From assembly GCF_001183865.1 (NCBI RefSeq), contig NZ_CP012020.1, forward strand, positions 1,426,001 to 1,490,000: a stretch of DNA of 64,000 nt, given 5' to 3'. The notes beneath the pieces were generated by a model. The model was not told where the DNA came from. It saw only the letters and a program-made list of their open reading frames with translations, and made no database searches. The position numbers were made by a program, and so were the translations under genes. The stretch is from Methylophilus sp. TWE2 (GTDB lineage Bacteria > Pseudomonadota > Gammaproteobacteria > Burkholderiales > Methylophilaceae). This document shows, piece by piece, positions 1 to 8,431 of the stretch. The first letter of the stretch is position 1; every line of letters begins with the position of its first letter.

Positions 1-1
1 C

Positions 2-268
2 GGCAATACCTCAGCTGGGCAGTTTCTTATTACCATAATAATTTATGCATTTCTTTGCATTCTCCCATATAAAATTAGCCATCAAAGCAATGCTGCTCGC
101 TATGTTTATTTGGTTATAACTATTTTTTCGTTTCTTTCCCTTTTTGCCATTGATTACGTAAGGTTCAAACTAGAGTTTATTGTTTCGTTAGCTTTAATTC
201 CTATTGAAATTTTCATTCTTTATCGACTATTCCAAAAAGAGGCTTCAAATTGGTTTCTTTCAAAGTAA
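2..268 (+). CDS. Partial cassette-encoded membrane protein (5' end outside window)
   Basis: An open frame enters from the left edge and stops with TAA just before the first attC. The visible 88 residues contain about three hydrophobic stretches (around residues 5-20, 34-50 and 60-77) separated by short charged loops, and the protein ends in a polar tail (ASNWFLSK). It is therefore the C-terminal half of a small polytopic membrane protein carried on a cassette. I do not recognise the family. The stop lies ahead of the attC inverse core, so unlike its neighbour the reading frame does not run into the recombination site. Confidence 0.6.
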   Translation, partial: GNTSAGQFLITIIIYAFLCILPYKISHQSNAARYVYLVITIFSFLSLFAIDYVRFKLEFIVSLALIPIEIFILYRLFQKEASNWFLSK

Positions 269-274
269 AGTTTT

Positions 275-334
275 TCCTAACCCATCATTCAAGCGGGACC
301 TGCTAAAGCAGGCCCCTTAATTCAAACGTTAGAG
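275..334 (+). repeat. attC site 1 (short form)
   Basis: It runs from the inverse core TCCTAAC to the core GTTAGAG. The inner palindrome is GGGACCTGC / GCAGGCCCC, with conserved CCATCATTCAAGC on the left and TTCAAACGTTAG on the right. About 60 bp. The bottom strand can fold into the hairpin that an integron integrase recognises. Confidence 0.9.
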
Positions 335-341
335 CTCAATC

Positions 342-659
342 ATGAAATGGTTCCTATTGGTGGCATTCGTGGCAATAAATGTAGTGGGAGCCGTCTTTGT
401 GCTTATGCCGGGCCTTATCACTTATGCTGAAGTTCCTCCAAAAGGCATAACGTGTAGCTTATGCACAGACCCCGAGGTTCAAAAAGCACTTACTGCTGCC
501 GCAACTTATGGTCGTGAGGCAATCCTTCGCCAACTAAATACCTCGGCAAGTTGGGTGCTTGCTCTTGCGGTTTTCAATACAGTCGCTTTTGCATTGGCTT
601 TGTTTTTTCGCCGCTCTAACCCATCATTCAAGCGGGACGCGCTAAAGCGCGCCCCTTAA
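342..659 (+). CDS. Cassette-encoded membrane protein, unknown function
   Basis: 105 codons starting with ATG seven bases after the attC core. The protein has an N-terminal hydrophobic segment (residues 3-26), a soluble middle with a CSLC motif (Cys38, Cys41), and a second hydrophobic segment (about 68-88). It is probably a two-pass or signal-anchored membrane protein with a small extracytoplasmic loop that could use the CxxC pair for a disulfide or metal. The last 13 residues (SNPSFKRDALKRA) are encoded by the attC site itself, so the tail depends on which attC follows. No family recognised. No strong Shine-Dalgarno is visible; expression probably depends on readthrough from upstream. Confidence 0.7.
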   Translation: MKWFLLVAFVAINVVGAVFVLMPGLITYAEVPPKGITCSLCTDPEVQKALTAAATYGREAILRQLNTSASWVLALAVFNTVAFALALFFRRSNPSFKRDALKRAP

Positions 660-673
660 CTCAAACGTTAGCT
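614..673 (+). repeat. attC site 2 (short form)
   Basis: Inverse core CTCTAAC, core GTTAGCT, with central palindrome GGGACGCGC TAAA GCGCGCCCC. 60 bp, close in sequence to site 1 apart from the variable inner stem, where paired positions have changed on both sides. Confidence 0.9.
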
Positions 674-677
674 CCCT

Positions 678-1100
678 ATGCGCTACGCATTCTTTTTTGT
701 ACTAGTATTAGTTGTTACATTTGCTGGCGAGTGGCTATACAGGTCATTTCTTCGTCCAGTTGAACCGCTTGCCACAGAAGCAATTGCGCTGGCCAATCAC
801 TTCAATCAGGACGGTATTCACGTGCGCCCATATCCAGTAAGGCATGGGCTTCGTCACTCACAGGTCTTATCTGTCGCAGGATTTGAGATAGTTGGCTATC
901 CACTACCAATTGTGGTCGAGATTTGTCCAACAGAAGAAAGTGCAATTCAGAGGCTCAGAGCCGTAAGCGCAATCCCTAATTTAACCCACACGAATAGAAA
1001 TGGGCGCTTAGTCATGAATCTTCCTATGTGGGGTGATGATGCGGGCGCGATGGCTACAAGGGTTAAAAATGTATTTGCTTCGTTTAAATCCGCTGGCTAA
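678..1100 (+). CDS. Cassette-encoded signal-anchored protein, unknown function
   Basis: 140 codons starting with ATG four bases after the attC core. Residues 3-20 are strongly hydrophobic and followed by WLYRSF, which suggests a signal anchor or uncleaved signal. The rest is soluble, a mixed alpha/beta-looking domain with a conserved-looking VVEICPTEESA segment and a C-terminal amphipathic helix (DDAGAMATRVKNVFASF). The stop TAA overlaps the inverse core of the next attC. The function is unknown; it is best described as a periplasm-facing orphan protein of the cassette pool. Confidence 0.7.
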   Translation: MRYAFFFVLVLVVTFAGEWLYRSFLRPVEPLATEAIALANHFNQDGIHVRPYPVRHGLRHSQVLSVAGFEIVGYPLPIVVEICPTEESAIQRLRAVSAIPNLTHTNRNGRLVMNLPMWGDDAGAMATRVKNVFASFKSAG

Positions 1101-1205
1101 CCCATCAGTCAAGCGGGACTGGCGAAAAGGCTCTTTTGTAAAATGTTTATTAATAACGAGGGTTGAGCCACCATGGTCGCCAGCCCCTTAATTCAAACGT
1201 TAGGC
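1095..1205 (+). repeat. attC site 3 (long form, 111 bp)
   Basis: It has the same outer arms as the short sites: GGCTAAC CCATCAGTCAAGC on the left and TTCAAACGTTAGGC on the right. The stem is extended by CTGGCGA / TCGCCAG and then GGCTC / GAGCC around an AT-rich loop (TGTTTATTAATAACG). It is nearly identical to site 4, about 600 bp away. Confidence 0.88.
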
Positions 1206-1210
1206 CTAGC

Positions 1211-1735
1211 ATGACTATTGCAAGTGTCCGAATTTACTATTGCCCAATGACGAAAGAACGCGAGCAATCATTAACCTTTTCTCATTGGGGTTTTGCAGAA
1301 TGGTTTTGTCGTCGCTTAAAACCCATTCGAGAGCAATTACGAGGCCCTGAGGCCAAAGGAGTTAATATCGTCAACCTAATGCTTCATGAAACCCCTGAGC
1401 ATGCATGGTTTCCTAATGAATGGCGTCAAAGAGCTAACTCTTTTAATTATTCGCTAATTTATGATTTAAGTACTCTCGAAAATCAGCAGCCTATCGAAAA
1501 TATACAAAATCTAATGCAACTATATGCCAACCTAGCTGAACAAGCACCATGGCCACAAGTGAGAGCACTTGTTCCTCAATTAGGCGAACCACTAAGCGAA
1601 ATTGATAAAGTAACTCTTCTACCTTATTTGCAATGGCCTCGTGGTGAGAAAGTCAGTGATGCTCATGCGAAAAGAATTTTAAAGGGCAGCCTAACCCATC
1701 AGTCAAGCGGGACTGGCGAAAAGGTGCTTCTATGA
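1211..1735 (+). CDS. Cassette-encoded cytoplasmic protein, unknown function
   Basis: 174 codons from the ATG six bases past the attC core. An in-frame extension back to 1163 lies inside the attC and is unlikely to be used. No signal peptide or membrane segment is seen. The protein is rich in aromatics and has a striking W/F cluster near the start (FSHWGFAEWFCRRL), then a helical middle (QNLMQLYANLAEQAPW). The last 13 or so residues (from LTHQSSG) are encoded by the following attC, so the native domain probably ends near ILKGS. The family is not recognised. It is the only clearly soluble cytoplasmic product in the array and is flanked on both sides by the long attC form. Confidence 0.7.
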   Translation: MTIASVRIYYCPMTKEREQSLTFSHWGFAEWFCRRLKPIREQLRGPEAKGVNIVNLMLHETPEHAWFPNEWRQRANSFNYSLIYDLSTLENQQPIENIQNLMQLYANLAEQAPWPQVRALVPQLGEPLSEIDKVTLLPYLQWPRGEKVSDAHAKRILKGSLTHQSSGTGEKVLL

Positions 1736-1799
1736 AATGTTTATTAATAACGAGGGTTGAGCCACTGGTGTCGCCAGCCCCTTACTTCAAACGTTGGGC
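1689..1799 (+). repeat. attC site 4 (long form, 111 bp)
   Basis: It runs from the inverse core GCCTAAC to the core GTTGGGC. It shares the extended stem CTGGCGA / TCGCCAG and the AT-rich loop with site 3, differing at only a few positions, for example GTGCTTCTATG in place of GCTCTTTTGTA. Confidence 0.88.
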
Positions 1800-1802
1800 A
1801 TC

Positions 1803-2192
1803 ATGATTTTTCGTGTACGCTTTATCCACTTGTTCGTTTTGTCAGTGCTTAGCACTTCTGCACTAGCAGCACCCATTCCAAAAGAGGCGCAGTCTCTCAT
1901 TTTGAAAGTACATGTTGCTGCAAGTAAAAAAGATACAGAAACATTAAAAAAACTGATGGTCACAGAGTTTATTTGGGGCTTTGGTGGCGATGGTGACGCG
2001 GAGCAGGCCATACAAGCTTGGAAAGCTGACACATCTCTCTTTAAAAAACTTTATCATGTTACAGGTCGAGACTGCTTTGAAAAGCCTGACCACTCTATTG
2101 AGTGTCCTAAGAATGCGGGTACAAGTTATCGTGCAGGTTTTAAGAAAACCACTAAGGGGTGGCGAATGTTTTATTTTGTGGGGGGTGACTAA
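1803..2192 (+). CDS. Cassette-encoded secreted protein, unknown function
   Basis: 129 codons from ATG just past the attC core; the upstream TTG at 1794 lies inside the core and is rejected. Residues 1-22 form a typical Sec signal peptide with cleavage expected after ALAA. The mature part is about 107 residues and starts with a helix-rich, lysine-rich stretch (AASKKDTETLKKLM). A C-terminal beta-like region follows, with two cysteines (CFEKP..IECPK) spaced for a disulfide. The shape (helix, then curved sheet ending in KGWRMFYFVGG) recalls NTF2-like periplasmic proteins, but this is only a guess. The stop precedes the attC. Confidence 0.7.
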   Translation: MIFRVRFIHLFVLSVLSTSALAAPIPKEAQSLILKVHVAASKKDTETLKKLMVTEFIWGFGGDGDAEQAIQAWKADTSLFKKLYHVTGRDCFEKPDHSIECPKNAGTSYRAGFKKTTKGWRMFYFVGGD

Positions 2193-2195
2193 CAT

Positions 2196-2255
2196 GCCCA
2201 ACTCAGCCATCAAGCGGGATGCGCTAAAGCGCGCCACTTATGTCAAACGTTGGGC
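2196..2255 (+). repeat. attC site 5 (short form)
   Basis: Inverse core GCCCAAC, core GTTGGGC, exactly complementary to each other. Inner palindrome GCGC TAAA GCGC. 60 bp. Confidence 0.9.
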
Positions 2256-2258
2256 GTC

Positions 2259-2645
2259 ATGAGTCGTACTATTAGATTTCTACTTACAATTGAGGCAGTT
2301 GTTTGCTGCGGTGTAGTTACAATTGCTTTTATTTTTAACTTTCCTTGGCTTGTTTTAGCGCCCCTCATGACACTCAAATATTCTCCTTTTGCTAGCATCA
2401 AGTCTTTCTTGTTGCTCATCGGTTGCGTATGCGCACTCATTGCATTTTGGAGTTTGGTTTTTTCAACCATTAGCAATTTGAAATATCGTTTTAACAGTCT
2501 TTTCTGGTTAGGCGTTGCAGGCGCTATATTTGCTCTAATTGAAGTTACATCTTGGTCAGAAAACTGGGCTAGCAGGGCAATCTTTTATGCTCCAATAGCC
2601 TGCGCAACACATTTTATATACCTACAGTTCAGGAAAGCTAACTAA
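2259..2645 (+). CDS. Cassette-encoded four-helix membrane protein, unknown function
   Basis: 128 codons from ATG four bases after the attC core. Four hydrophobic segments are visible, at about residues 5-27, 45-70, 80-95 and 105-120, with short polar links and a basic C-terminus (QFRKAN). It is a small polytopic inner-membrane protein. No motif identifies a transporter or enzyme family. The stop lies a few bases ahead of the next attC. Confidence 0.7.
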   Translation: MSRTIRFLLTIEAVVCCGVVTIAFIFNFPWLVLAPLMTLKYSPFASIKSFLLLIGCVCALIAFWSLVFSTISNLKYRFNSLFWLGVAGAIFALIEVTSWSENWASRAIFYAPIACATHFIYLQFRKAN

Positions 2646-2649
2646 TGAT

Positions 2650-2709
2650 GCCCAACCCATCCATCAAGCGGGACGCGCTAAAGCGCGCCCCTTATGTCAA
2701 ACGTTGGGT
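2650..2709 (+). repeat. attC site 6 (short form)
   Basis: Inverse core GCCCAAC, core GTTGGGT, inner palindrome GGGACGCGC TAAA GCGCGCCCC identical to that of site 2. 60 bp. Confidence 0.9.
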
Positions 2710-2718
2710 AATATACTT

Positions 2719-3225
2719 ATGAAAAACTATCCACTCATTCTAGTTACGCTATTAATCGGGTTTTATACATTTAGCGTAAATGCGCAAGATGGTGAGACAT
2801 TGACATCAGAGTCAAGGGACGCCGCGTCCGCGTATATGGGAACAATGAACTTTGTTGTAGGTCGTTTAGGCTTAGAGTGCCTTTCGTTAATTGGTCGTTC
2901 TGAGACTCCGAAAGAGTTTGCAAACGCTTGGCAACAGCGAAACTCCAAGTATTTCTCTGCATCTATAAAGTACATGGGTAAGCGACTCGATTCTGCTCTC
3001 AGTTCTGGAGGCATTGGCGCTCGCGATGCTGTTCTCTATGAATATTCTTCTGCTGTGAGACGTGATGGTGAAGCAAGTGTTGCTGATTGGTTTCGAAAAG
3101 GAAATAAAGAAGACACCTGTAAACGTGCAGTGGCATTGATCGATGCAAAAGCTATGGATGTAAGTGCCAAAGTTCCAATGTATGGAGAGTTGGAAGCGCT
3201 CGCCTCTTGGGCTGAGGCAAATTGA
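2719..3225 (+). CDS. Cassette-encoded secreted protein, unknown function
   Basis: 168 codons from ATG ten bases after the attC core. A Sec signal peptide covers residues 1-22, with cleavage expected after VNA. The mature protein is about 146 residues and predominantly helical. It contains two cysteines (GLECLSLIG and EDTCKRAVAL) that could form a disulfide bridging the helices. The charge pattern and AWQQRNSKYFSAS segment look like a soluble periplasmic helical bundle. No family recognised. It ends 18 bases before the next attC. Confidence 0.7.
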   Translation: MKNYPLILVTLLIGFYTFSVNAQDGETLTSESRDAASAYMGTMNFVVGRLGLECLSLIGRSETPKEFANAWQQRNSKYFSASIKYMGKRLDSALSSGGIGARDAVLYEYSSAVRRDGEASVADWFRKGNKEDTCKRAVALIDAKAMDVSAKVPMYGELEALASWAEAN

Positions 3226-3243
3226 ATAAACGCAGAGCTGAAA

Positions 3244-3304
3244 GCCCAACCCATCCATCAAGCGGTGCGCGCTAAAGAGCACCCATTACATTTAAACGTT
3301 TGGC
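3244..3304 (+). repeat. attC site 7 (last recognisable)
   Basis: Inverse core GCCCAAC, core GTTTGGC. The inner stem is decayed (GTGCGCGC / GAGCACC) and the right arm reads ACATTTAAACG rather than TTCAAACG, so this is the most diverged site of the array. It is the last one seen before the array ends. Confidence 0.8.
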
Positions 3305-3338: not shown

Positions 3339-3560
3339 GTGCTCAAATTGAAAACAAAACAATTTTTGGCAATGATTGCGTTGGCTTTTTTAATCCTTAC
3401 TATTACTGGGTGCACGACTAAATCATGGTACGAAGGGGTGAAAGAAGGCGCAAAAAATAACTGTCGCAGTCAACCTCCAGGCGAAGTTGAGTCGTGTTTA
3501 GAAAAGCTGAATAACAAAACGTATGAAGAATATGAAAAAGAGCGCTCTGGGCAAAAATAA
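3339..3560 (+). CDS. Small lipoprotein of the terminal cassette
   Basis: 73 codons from a GTG start preceded by AAGGTAGAG. Residues 1-25 form a lipoprotein signal peptide ending in the lipobox ITGC, with Cys25 as the expected lipidated residue. The mature peptide is short, charged and soluble, with two further cysteines (NNCRSQPP and VESCLEK) that could pair, and ends in a basic tail. It lies after the last recognisable attC and has no attC of its own downstream. It is therefore either the terminal, immobilised cassette or a flanking chromosomal gene. No known small-lipoprotein family recognised. Confidence 0.6.
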   Translation: MLKLKTKQFLAMIALAFLILTITGCTTKSWYEGVKEGAKNNCRSQPPGEVESCLEKLNNKTYEEYEKERSGQK

Positions 3561-5019: not shown

Positions 5020-5388
5020 ATGCTTAATCTCGAGGTCACTGAAATCAAAGCGTTTGTCCCTTCCAAGAACTTTGAGGTTTCCAAACAGTTTTACAAAGAC
5101 ATGGGATTCACCATGGCCTCGGAAGGCGGCGGGGTGGCTTATTTCCACTTTGCGCATGTGAGTTTTTTGTTACAGGATTTTTGCGCAGAAAACCTGGCGG
5201 AGAATTTTATGATGCATTTGCTGGTGCAGGATGTGGATTCCTGGTGGGCGCACATTGAGCAGAGCGATATCGTCAATCGATATGGCGTGAAGATTTGGCC
5301 GATTCAGCTGCAAAGCTGGGGGATGCGTGATTTCTGTATCACAGACCCTTCAGGTGTGTTATGGCGGATTGGGCAAAACGTCGATTAA
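5020..5388 (+). CDS. Glyoxalase/bleomycin-resistance (VOC) superfamily protein
   Basis: 122 codons from ATG with GGAAGGG upstream. It has the length and layout of a single VOC unit made of two beta-alpha-beta-beta-beta modules: FVPSKNFEVSKQFYKDMGF at the start, HFAHVSFLL in the middle, and SWGMRDFCITDPSGVLWRI at the end, the last being typical of the VOC C-terminal motif. Members bind a divalent metal and act on varied small molecules or sequester drugs. The substrate is not predictable here. It is probably co-transcribed with the preceding membrane protein. Confidence 0.8.
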   Translation: MLNLEVTEIKAFVPSKNFEVSKQFYKDMGFTMASEGGGVAYFHFAHVSFLLQDFCAENLAENFMMHLLVQDVDSWWAHIEQSDIVNRYGVKIWPIQLQSWGMRDFCITDPSGVLWRIGQNVD

Positions 5389-6100: not shown

Positions 6101-6754
6101 ATGAATAACAGTTACTTCAGCAGAGTGTTTATCGTCGTGATGTCTGTTTGGTTGGCAGGGTGTTGTGGCATTGAACCGACGACGATTACGCAACAGGTCA
6201 CGCCACCTGCCACCCCAGCCGCTGCGCAGGTCAATTCAGCTTCGAGAGCAGTGTTACATGTGATTGGCGTATACCAGGGTGCCTTGCCTGAAGTTGCTGA
6301 CAAGCGGCCTTGGTGGGCACAATGCCGGGCTGCCAGGCAGTCAACTGGCAGCACAGAGCCTCTGTCGCCCGCTGAATGCCAGCCATTTATTAATGCGAGC
6401 AGGGAGCAACGCACGGTAACGGTGAATGTCAGTGATGATTCTTCGCCCATTATTTTGGGCTTAATGGCCTATGAACCGGTGACCTGGCATATTAAAACCA
6501 CACCAGGCGTCGTTATCCAGAAAGTGATTCTGACGGGATATCATCAGCAAGAGATTGTGGGGTCCGGTGAGGCTCAGGTGGATGTGTATAGCTACAACAA
6601 CAGTCCTTGTGATCGCTGTGTGCAAAAGGGGCGCTACTTTTATTCTTATGAACATGTGCCGAGGGAGATGGAGTTGGCTGCGGGTGTCCGGGCCAGTTCT
6701 TTTCAAGGCAACTATACCGGAGGCACTTACCAGATTTTCAAAGACATGCTTTAG
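6101..6754 (+). CDS. Putative lipoprotein of unknown function
   Basis: 217 codons from ATG with AGGAAAATTAAGG upstream. The N-terminus is a lipoprotein signal peptide with the lipobox WLAGC (Cys21). A Pro/Thr/Ala linker follows (about 30-45), then a globular domain of about 165 residues. This domain has a CRAARQSTG..PAECQPF cysteine pair, a beta-rich centre (RTVTVNVSDDSSPIILGL and EPVTWHIKTTPGVVIQKVIL) and a CDRC motif near residue 170. The EPVTWHI..V.V.GYH pattern resembles anchored beta-sandwich envelope proteins seen in Proteobacteria, but no named family is assigned. Expected in the periplasm or outer membrane. Confidence 0.7.
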   Translation: MNNSYFSRVFIVVMSVWLAGCCGIEPTTITQQVTPPATPAAAQVNSASRAVLHVIGVYQGALPEVADKRPWWAQCRAARQSTGSTEPLSPAECQPFINASREQRTVTVNVSDDSSPIILGLMAYEPVTWHIKTTPGVVIQKVILTGYHQQEIVGSGEAQVDVYSYNNSPCDRCVQKGRYFYSYEHVPREMELAAGVRASSFQGNYTGGTYQIFKDML

Positions 6755-7141: not shown

Positions 7142-8431
7142 TTGTCTTATCTTAACCAGCGACGTTCTGTCGCGTCGCTTGCCCGTTTTCTCATCCAATC
7201 CTTTTTTATCCTTTGTTGTAGCCATGGATTACACAGCGTGGCCTTAGCCGCCAGCGATGATACAACTCCTAGATTGTTGCTCTCTGGCAGTGACGCGGCA
7301 GAAGCAGAAAAAGAAGCTAAAAAAGAACCTGAGCCACCGCGAATTACCTCAGTATTCGGTACTCAACCCCTCAAAGAATTCAAATTACCTTTTGAAGACC
7401 AATATCCGTCAGGTCCCTTCGAGCGCTTGGATAAAAAACTGTTTCTGTTTATCAGTAAATGCGGTGATGTGTTTTTTGTCCGCCAGAATGAGGGCATGGA
7501 ATTGGTCAAACCCGGTAAGGCGTTGGCCAAATTTATTCCTGGAGACGAGACCTCGTCTGACGAAAGCAGTAGCAAGCAACTGGTTTACTGCAAGGAATTA
7601 TCCGGTGTGAAAGACTCCTTGCTGGTAGGTAAAACGCTCTATGTGGCTTATACCACTTGGGATGAAGCCAATAATGGGGTGCGGCTGGCAGTCAGTGAGT
7701 TTGCCGTGGATATTGAAAATAGCGAAGTCAGTTTTGATCGCGAAATTTATATCAGTCGCCCGGCCATTAAAGAGCCAATCCTGGGGCACCAGGTCGGTGG
7801 CAAACTGGCGTTGGGAGAGAATGAGCGTACCTTGTACCTGAGTTTGGGTGACTTTTCCAAACCTGACCGGGTTCAAGATAAAACGACTTCTTTAGGTAAG
7901 GTGGTACGTATTGATTTGCAGCGTTTGAATGCTGAGGTTTATGCCTCAGGCTTTCGCTCGCCTTCTGGAGGCTTGTTCTATGACCGCGAAAGCAATGAAT
8001 TATGGCTCACCGACCATGGGCCGCGCGGAGGTGATGAGATTAACCTGATCAAACGTGGTAAAAATTATGGCTGGCCAAATGTCAGTTATGGCACGATTTA
8101 CGAGCGTGATGGCATAGGCGGCTATTACGGCAATAAATTCAATAGCCATGAAGGTTATGAAAAACCGCAAATGACCTTCTTGCCGTCGATTGGCATCGGC
8201 CCGCTAGTGAAATATCCTTCTACTGGGCGCAATGATTTCTGGGATAACGATTTGTTTGTGGCTGGCATGGGTAATACGACCTTATATCGTGTACGCAAGG
8301 AAGGCACTAATCTGGTGTATGCCGAACCAGTATTGAACGGATACCGTATCCGTGCCATCCAGATTGACCAGAATGGGACTTTCTATCTTAAAACGGACCA
8401 TAATCAGCTGCTGATTTCGGAACAGGAATAA
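7142..8431 (+). CDS. PQQ-type glucose/sorbosone dehydrogenase-like exported protein
   Basis: 429 codons from TTG with GGGAG six bases upstream. A long signal peptide is followed by an acidic/basic linker (AAEAEKEAKKEPEPP) and a six-bladed beta-propeller domain. Family motifs are clear in the second half: LGKVVRIDL, ASGFRSPSGGLFYD, LWLTDHGPRGGDEINLI and KNYGWPNVSYG. These match the soluble PQQ-dependent sugar dehydrogenase family (GSDH). The blade motif normally written as GxRNPQG reads GFRSPSG, so cofactor use should not be assumed. The site of action is the periplasm. AT-rich DNA just upstream (7041-7140) probably holds its promoter. Confidence 0.8.
   Translation: MSYLNQRRSVASLARFLIQSFFILCCSHGLHSVALAASDDTTPRLLLSGSDAAEAEKEAKKEPEPPRITSVFGTQPLKEFKLPFEDQYPSGPFERLDKKLFLFISKCGDVFFVRQNEGMELVKPGKALAKFIPGDETSSDESSSKQLVYCKELSGVKDSLLVGKTLYVAYTTWDEANNGVRLAVSEFAVDIENSEVSFDREIYISRPAIKEPILGHQVGGKLALGENERTLYLSLGDFSKPDRVQDKTTSLGKVVRIDLQRLNAEVYASGFRSPSGGLFYDRESNELWLTDHGPRGGDEINLIKRGKNYGWPNVSYGTIYERDGIGGYYGNKFNSHEGYEKPQMTFLPSIGIGPLVKYPSTGRNDFWDNDLFVAGMGNTTLYRVRKEGTNLVYAEPVLNGYRIRAIQIDQNGTFYLKTDHNQLLISEQE

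Follow-up and report, generated by a model that had tools for sequence, protein, structure and literature searches.

Positions 1-3303 of the window (the whole 64-kb stretch analysed, G000:C1:1426001-1490000, of the chromosome of Methylophilus sp. TWE2, which is a single 3.08-Mb contig) very probably represent the distal third of a sedentary chromosomal integron, whose 22 cassettes would serve as a reservoir of small genes open to exchange. The locus comprises an intact frame of the integrase gene intI, an attI boundary, 22 foldable attC sites, cassettes in one orientation and cassettes that are common with congeners. It is chromosomal, and its 22 cassettes place it above the criterion of about 20 cassettes for a sedentary chromosomal integron. 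The cassettes were numbered c1-c22 from the intI side; the window holds c16, cut at its edge, to c22. Thus, the six complete and one partial cassette on the plus strand that were described in an initial annotation of this DNA were recovered as c17-c22 and c16. The remaining part of the array was read in a 17.5-kb locus around the left window edge (L008), in which a position equals the window position + 13000. The observation follows a known pattern, and the array adds another example of an ordinary chromosomal integron.

Both intI and attI, which the initial annotation had proposed to look for upstream, were located there. The frame of intI, 7.3-8.3 kb before the window, is intact and points away from the array. 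In the NCBIfam profile search its product reached 483.1 bits against TIGR02249 integrase_gron (cut-off 265), and 130.1 bits were obtained against Pfam Phage_integrase. Among the matches of this product were proteins of Methylotenera (76%) and Methylophilales (70%), and of other Betaproteobacteria. Over the 36 bases up to ...TAATTAACGTTAG, two congeners are identical to L008 at 31 and 32 positions; past ...TAATTAACGTTAG, the identity falls to 14 and 19 of the next 60 bases. The similarity stops at ACGTTAG, about 130 bp from the start of intI. We take this boundary of the conserved block beside intI as attI, where each species would have received different cassettes. Several congeners have the same genes next to this platform, including trhO and the open reading frame (ORF) of window 5020-5388, in agreement with the description of the array as sedentary.

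The array contains 22 attC sites, seven of them inside the window. Their lengths fall into two classes: 56-73 bp, in most cases 58 bp, for sixteen sites, and 109 bp for six. A covariance model (R1) was built from all 22 sites, including the seven of the window, with attC modelled as bottom strand, hence the minus strand in Table 1. On the 64-kb window R1 detected the seven sites with 54-86 bits (all E-values at or below 1.5e-11), and up to E = 1 nothing else was matched. A 300-kb sample from other parts of the genome gave three matches, all from one cluster. On the whole genome R1 found the 22 sites, three clustered matches at 1880856-1882628, one at 1523388 (65 bits) and a weak one at 2277420 (29.7 bits). 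Since R1 was trained on the 22 sites their detection is expected, and the evidence lies in its specificity and in the covariation.

Covariation was scored with 500 shuffles on a structure written by hand from these 22 bottom-strand sequences. Paired cells amounted to 90.2%, compared with 82.9% in shuffles and 29-45% when the partners were slid. Cells changed on both sides numbered 36 (12.7 in shuffles, sd 2.9), and both this count and the covariation score exceeded all 500 shuffles. Two of the five measures did not distinguish the sites from shuffles: pairs with change on both sides (7 vs 5.5, reached by 93 of 500 shuffles) and further pair types (19 vs 17.8, reached by 164 of 500). From the three pairs beside the extrahelical base, two covary between the classes (AU/CG/GC and GC/UA/AU) and one is invariant. 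Hence, an integrase and a folding signal, on whose absence the initial annotation would have given up its integron, are both present. An earlier search for attC by strict pairing missed sites and gave one false site; it was superseded by another search, which yielded the 22.

Cassettes common to different arrays are an indirect sign that IntI may recombine these attC sites. Cassette c12 shares 95.5% DNA identity over 490 nt with a cassette of the congener G081 that belongs to a different array and occupies another position there, while the two genomes are 78.8% identical along a 2.8-kb stretch that contains intI and trhO. A tblastn search of the 22 products against the loci then compared gave matches with E of 1e-3 or less for seven products. 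Six of them matched in congeners, namely c3 (83%), c15 (90%), c12 (95%), c9 (55%), c13 (50%) and c17 (48%); the seventh, c4, had a weak match elsewhere. Relatives of c20 with 90% and 72% identity sit between attC matches in the genomes G459 and G038; the two attC matches in G038 score 38.6 and 20.3 bits. A strong intI match was found in 45 of 120 genomes of a family sample, the own genome included. The integron appears intact and exchanging. Such attC sites occur almost throughout its genus, since R1 gave matches in 21 of the 22 genomes compared, including the own one. Therefore, the excess of envelope-directed cassettes described below could be studied in a non-pathogen.

In integrons, IntI joins the folded bottom-strand attC of a circular cassette to attI. 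By this mechanism new cassettes would enter beside intI, and older ones, including those of the window, would be shifted away. Because IntI inserts at attI, the window cassettes lie at the greatest distance from the promoter presumed for the array and are probably its oldest members; they are probably also weakly expressed. The array may act as a reservoir of small exchangeable genes, many of whose products would function in the inner membrane or periplasm, and the cassettes might be kept for an occasional benefit against the surroundings, phages or competitors.

All 22 cassettes carry an ORF on the plus strand, in a single orientation. For none of the seven window products was a family over the cut-off found in Pfam, NCBIfam or PHROGs, as the initial annotation had claimed. 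Its term orphan holds in this respect only: 14 database matches were obtained for c18, 19 for c20 and 58 for c22 (the counts for c20 and c22 include the window's own cluster), and c17 has relatives in the congeners G057 (48% identical) and G099 (43%). One relative of c20 is from Methylophilus glucosoxydans, and one source labels a c20 relative 'nuclear transport factor 2 family' (NTF2). The predicted model of c22 is all helical with a pLDDT of 90.6. In the whole array three of 22 products had a Pfam family over the cut-off, namely c4 (DMP19-like, 87.4 bits), c5 (ParE toxin, 34.6 bits) and c14 (RraB, 81.1 bits). The toxin-like c5 was also the only one of 17 tested products over the cut-off in NCBIfam (RelE/StbE, 29.0 vs 27.9) and the only one of 17 matched in PHROGs (RelE-like). 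With PADLOC no credible defence match was obtained for the 22 products tested (c1 with its open part only); the sole matches were weak, with 12-15 bits on coiled-coil-like stretches of c1 and c9.

Products were counted as envelope-directed by one rule for all sets, a hydropathy segment or a signal-like N-terminus. As control 68 chromosomal genes of 65-180 aa were taken from 357 kb of the own genome. Six of the seven window products are envelope-directed, in accordance with the initial annotation, which had named at least five as membrane, secreted or lipid-anchored proteins. Over the array the proportion is 13 of 22, compared with 22 of 68 in the control (Fisher's exact test, one-sided P = 0.024, two-sided 0.043). 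In the arrays of 11 relatives 39 of 70 cassette ORFs are envelope-directed (one-sided P = 0.005 against the same control). For this set three intervals without ORF and one that was too long were dropped, and five of 90 attC matches were unused; three of the chosen ORFs lie on the opposite strand and two pairs of ORFs are closely related (98% and 73% identity). The envelope excess over the whole array is supported but modest. Thus, the enrichment claimed from the window persists in the array as a whole, in weaker form; the window holds a dense part of it. Such an enrichment has been reported for cassettes generally. PMC10963911 cites estimates by which a third of cassettes encode signal peptides or membrane segments, and its own samples gave signal peptides in 11-14% of cassettes; 11.6% is given for Xanthomonas cassettes in the same context (PMC12444791). 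These percentages are not comparable with our figures because the methods differ. The envelope tendency of cassettes is therefore already in print and not new here.

Several results weigh against the integron with its envelope-rich reservoir as described here. For a sigma-70-like promoter (Pc) there were 0 matches in L008 5500-6500, where 2.3 were expected by chance, and no LexA-like site with two or fewer mismatches lies between intI and attI. For 15 of the 22 products tblastn gave no relative in the loci compared. The count of six of seven in the window is a post hoc pick of a dense part. Cassette c2 was probably scored wrongly as envelope-directed; if it is not counted (12 of 22), the one-sided P rises to 0.054. 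The control set may carry false positives of this kind, too. Furthermore, the envelope excess was obtained with a simple hydropathy rule on genes from a home-made caller.

The opposite view, that the repeats belong to another repeat family and not to attC, so that no integron exists, is refuted to near certainty by intI, the attI boundary, the covarying boxes and the cassettes common to arrays; nothing was found in its favour. More weight has to be given to the possibility that the cassettes were drawn almost at random from small accessory genes, among which short, low-expression-tolerant and often-transferred ones tend to be small membrane proteins. The few Pfam families are heterogeneous, and among 321 genomes sampled from the class c22 was present in one, the own genome, with no other congener among the rows listed. 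However, the excess persists against size-matched genes and in the relatives, with a control that is not matched for horizontal transfer. In sum, we regard such sampling as a serious possibility, somewhat short of even chances.

A different explanation treats the array chiefly as a defence island, in which most of the envelope-directed products would keep phages from entering or counter toxins that act on the envelope. The envelope excess in this array and in those of relatives would fit. In experimental surveys, testing of cassettes without known function revealed at least 16 anti-phage cassettes among the 179 of a V. cholerae array, and in V. parahaemolyticus 9 of 57 tested cassettes were anti-phage (PMC12409362). 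Yet these published rates imply a minority of cassettes, PADLOC gave no credible match, and of 17 products tested only the RelE-like c5 was matched in PHROGs, so that a defence island is improbable. From the published base rate one or a few defence cassettes are expected here, and a defence role for a few of them is plausible; nothing here singles out such a cassette. Given the PADLOC result for all 22 products, the role in envelope variation or in phage or toxin defence proposed in the initial annotation is unproven. We consider it quite improbable that the array is selected as an exchangeable envelope shield. In this reading, small inner-membrane and periplasmic proteins of undescribed families, c17, c18, c20 and c22 among them, would prevent the entry of phage DNA or the action of toxins on the envelope, and would spread between methylotroph species by integron exchange. 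The families of c17, c18, c20 and c22 are open to direct testing. The features of the integron, read here as a reservoir of exchangeable genes, are compiled in Table 1.

Table 1 Features of the integron locus; positions refer to the window unless L008 is given
Feature	Position	Strand	Description
c16, partial	1-268	+	3' part of 119-aa protein, four hydrophobic segments; ORF start 92 bases before window
attC of c16	276-333	-	58 bp; R1 84.1 bits, E 2.5e-19
c17	342-659	+	105 aa, two hydrophobic segments; last ~14 codons within attC
attC of c17	615-672	-	58 bp; R1 81.2 bits
c18	678-1100	+	140 aa, N-terminal hydrophobic helix and alpha/beta domain
attC of c18, long class	1096-1204	-	109 bp; R1 62.6 bits
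c19	1211-1735	+	174 aa, predicted cytosolic, no hydrophobic segment; stop codon inside attC
attC of c19, long class	1690-1798	-	109 bp; R1 65.6 bits
c20	1803-2192	+	129 aa, signal-peptide-like N-terminus
attC of c20	2197-2254	-	58 bp; R1 72.7 bits
c21	2259-2645	+	128 aa, three hydrophobic segments
attC of c21	2651-2708	-	58 bp; R1 85.7 bits
c22	2719-3225	+	168 aa, signal-peptide-like N-terminus and helical domain
terminal attC (c22), more diverged	3245-3303	-	59 bp; R1 54.1 bits
lipoprotein-like ORF	3339-3560	+	73 aa, beyond last attC
intI	L008 4686-5675	-	329-aa open frame
end of conserved pre-array block (TAATTAACGTTAG)	L008 5787-5804		comparison with two congeners

The 109-bp attC class is 51 bases longer than the 58-bp class; besides the two sites in the window, four more are located in L008. 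Its core motif was found with at most one mismatch in 11 of 120 genomes of the family, own included. For a coding test 26 distinct long sites of the own array and of relatives were used, 20 with a core of 108 nt and six with other lengths. An internal ATG is kept in 16 of the 20 cores, and in 17 of 20 no frame other than the one leading from this ATG to the R' box is free of stops. In most cases this frame terminates at the R' box, just a few bases ahead of the next gene start. The variability is equal over its three codon positions (0.129, 0.125 and 0.118), and the changes relative to the consensus, taken singly, comprise 19 synonymous, 77 non-synonymous and 8 to stop; the same counts are 18, 85, 1 and 17, 86, 1 for the other two frames. 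Since there is neither a codon-position bias nor a synonymous excess, no sign of selection on the encoded peptide was detected and a selected peptide was rejected. The long attC may still act on translation independently of the peptide sequence. Short ORFs in attC have been proposed to aid cassette translation in class 1 integrons, as summarised in a review (PMC8876359). The long attC resembles ORF-11 of attI1 and the short attC ORFs treated there in that most sites contain an ATG followed by a frame which runs up to the R' box, but differs in the lack of a peptide-selection signal.

As described for Vibrio (PMC12409362) and Xanthomonas (PMC12444791), sedentary chromosomal integrons share with this locus a chromosomal intI, a long one-way array, attC sites typical of the lineage and mostly unknown products. 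In contrast to the 179 cassettes of the V. cholerae strain (PMC12409362), the array here holds 22, and unlike the Vibrio and Xanthomonas integrons described it has two length classes of attC, 56-73 and 109 bp. Additional attC clusters without integrase (CALIN) elsewhere are a further likeness to Xanthomonas (PMC12444791). Three attC matches form such a CALIN-like group at L180 856-2628 (G000:C1:1880856-1882628), where no integrase was seen, and a lone match lies at G000:C1:1523388 on the same chromosome. In congeners, for example G048 and G099, attC clusters are also found far from the intI match.

Within the family of the host, attC sites of Methylophilaceae are placed in a marine sub-clade in PMC11089894, and the supplementary legends of PMC3108266 include Methylobacillus flagellatus among the integrase holders. 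As these belong to the same bacterial family, integrons of Methylophilaceae are already in print. For streamlined pelagic Methylophilaceae, PMC10872708 reports no bona fide integrons among the insertions it describes. No description of this particular array was met in the available parts of the literature on integrons of Methylophilus and Methylophilaceae, which is no proof of absence.

Some individual cassettes showed further features. In c14 (L008 12077-12499) the RraB domain follows a signal-peptide-like N-terminus, which is odd for an inhibitor of a cytoplasmic ribonuclease, as RraB is. The RelE/ParE-like toxin domain of c5 (L008 8234-8683) occupies the C-terminal half, after about 60 residues without family, and no separate antitoxin ORF was noticed in this cassette. 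The gene of c1 (L008 ~6231-6753) looks frameshifted by eye, with the hydrophobic segment and the coiled coil in different frames. Several cassette ORFs run stop-free into attC and end inside it (window 615-659; L008 11245-11269 and 11710-11749). Thus, attC encodes C-terminal tails such as NPSFKRD. A paralogue of c22 with 49% identity is located outside the array at G000:C1:95482-95961 (L198); no attC match was present in the 3.5 kb read around it.

Beyond the last attC, the 73-aa lipoprotein-like ORF is probably a flanking gene and not a cassette, as relatives with 65-67% identity lie about 1 kb from intI in the congeners G099 and G087. Genes of formylmethanofuran dehydrogenase are located beside the integron locus. 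The congener G075 has at the same locus a TrhO with 97% identity and a counterpart of the ORF of window 7142-8431 with 99%. Despite these near-identical flanks its integrase (L129 17226-18212) is only 70% identical, and R1 gave no match in the 20 kb read there but five elsewhere in the G075 genome. The integrases of G110 and G081 are 93% and 92% identical, whereas the ORF of window 7142-8431 reaches 88-89%. For Xanthomonas a single ancient acquisition is reported (PMC12444791), which differs from what was found in G075. Judged from these identities, one integrase seems to have taken the place of another at a fixed chromosomal site, and intI does not appear to track its flanks.

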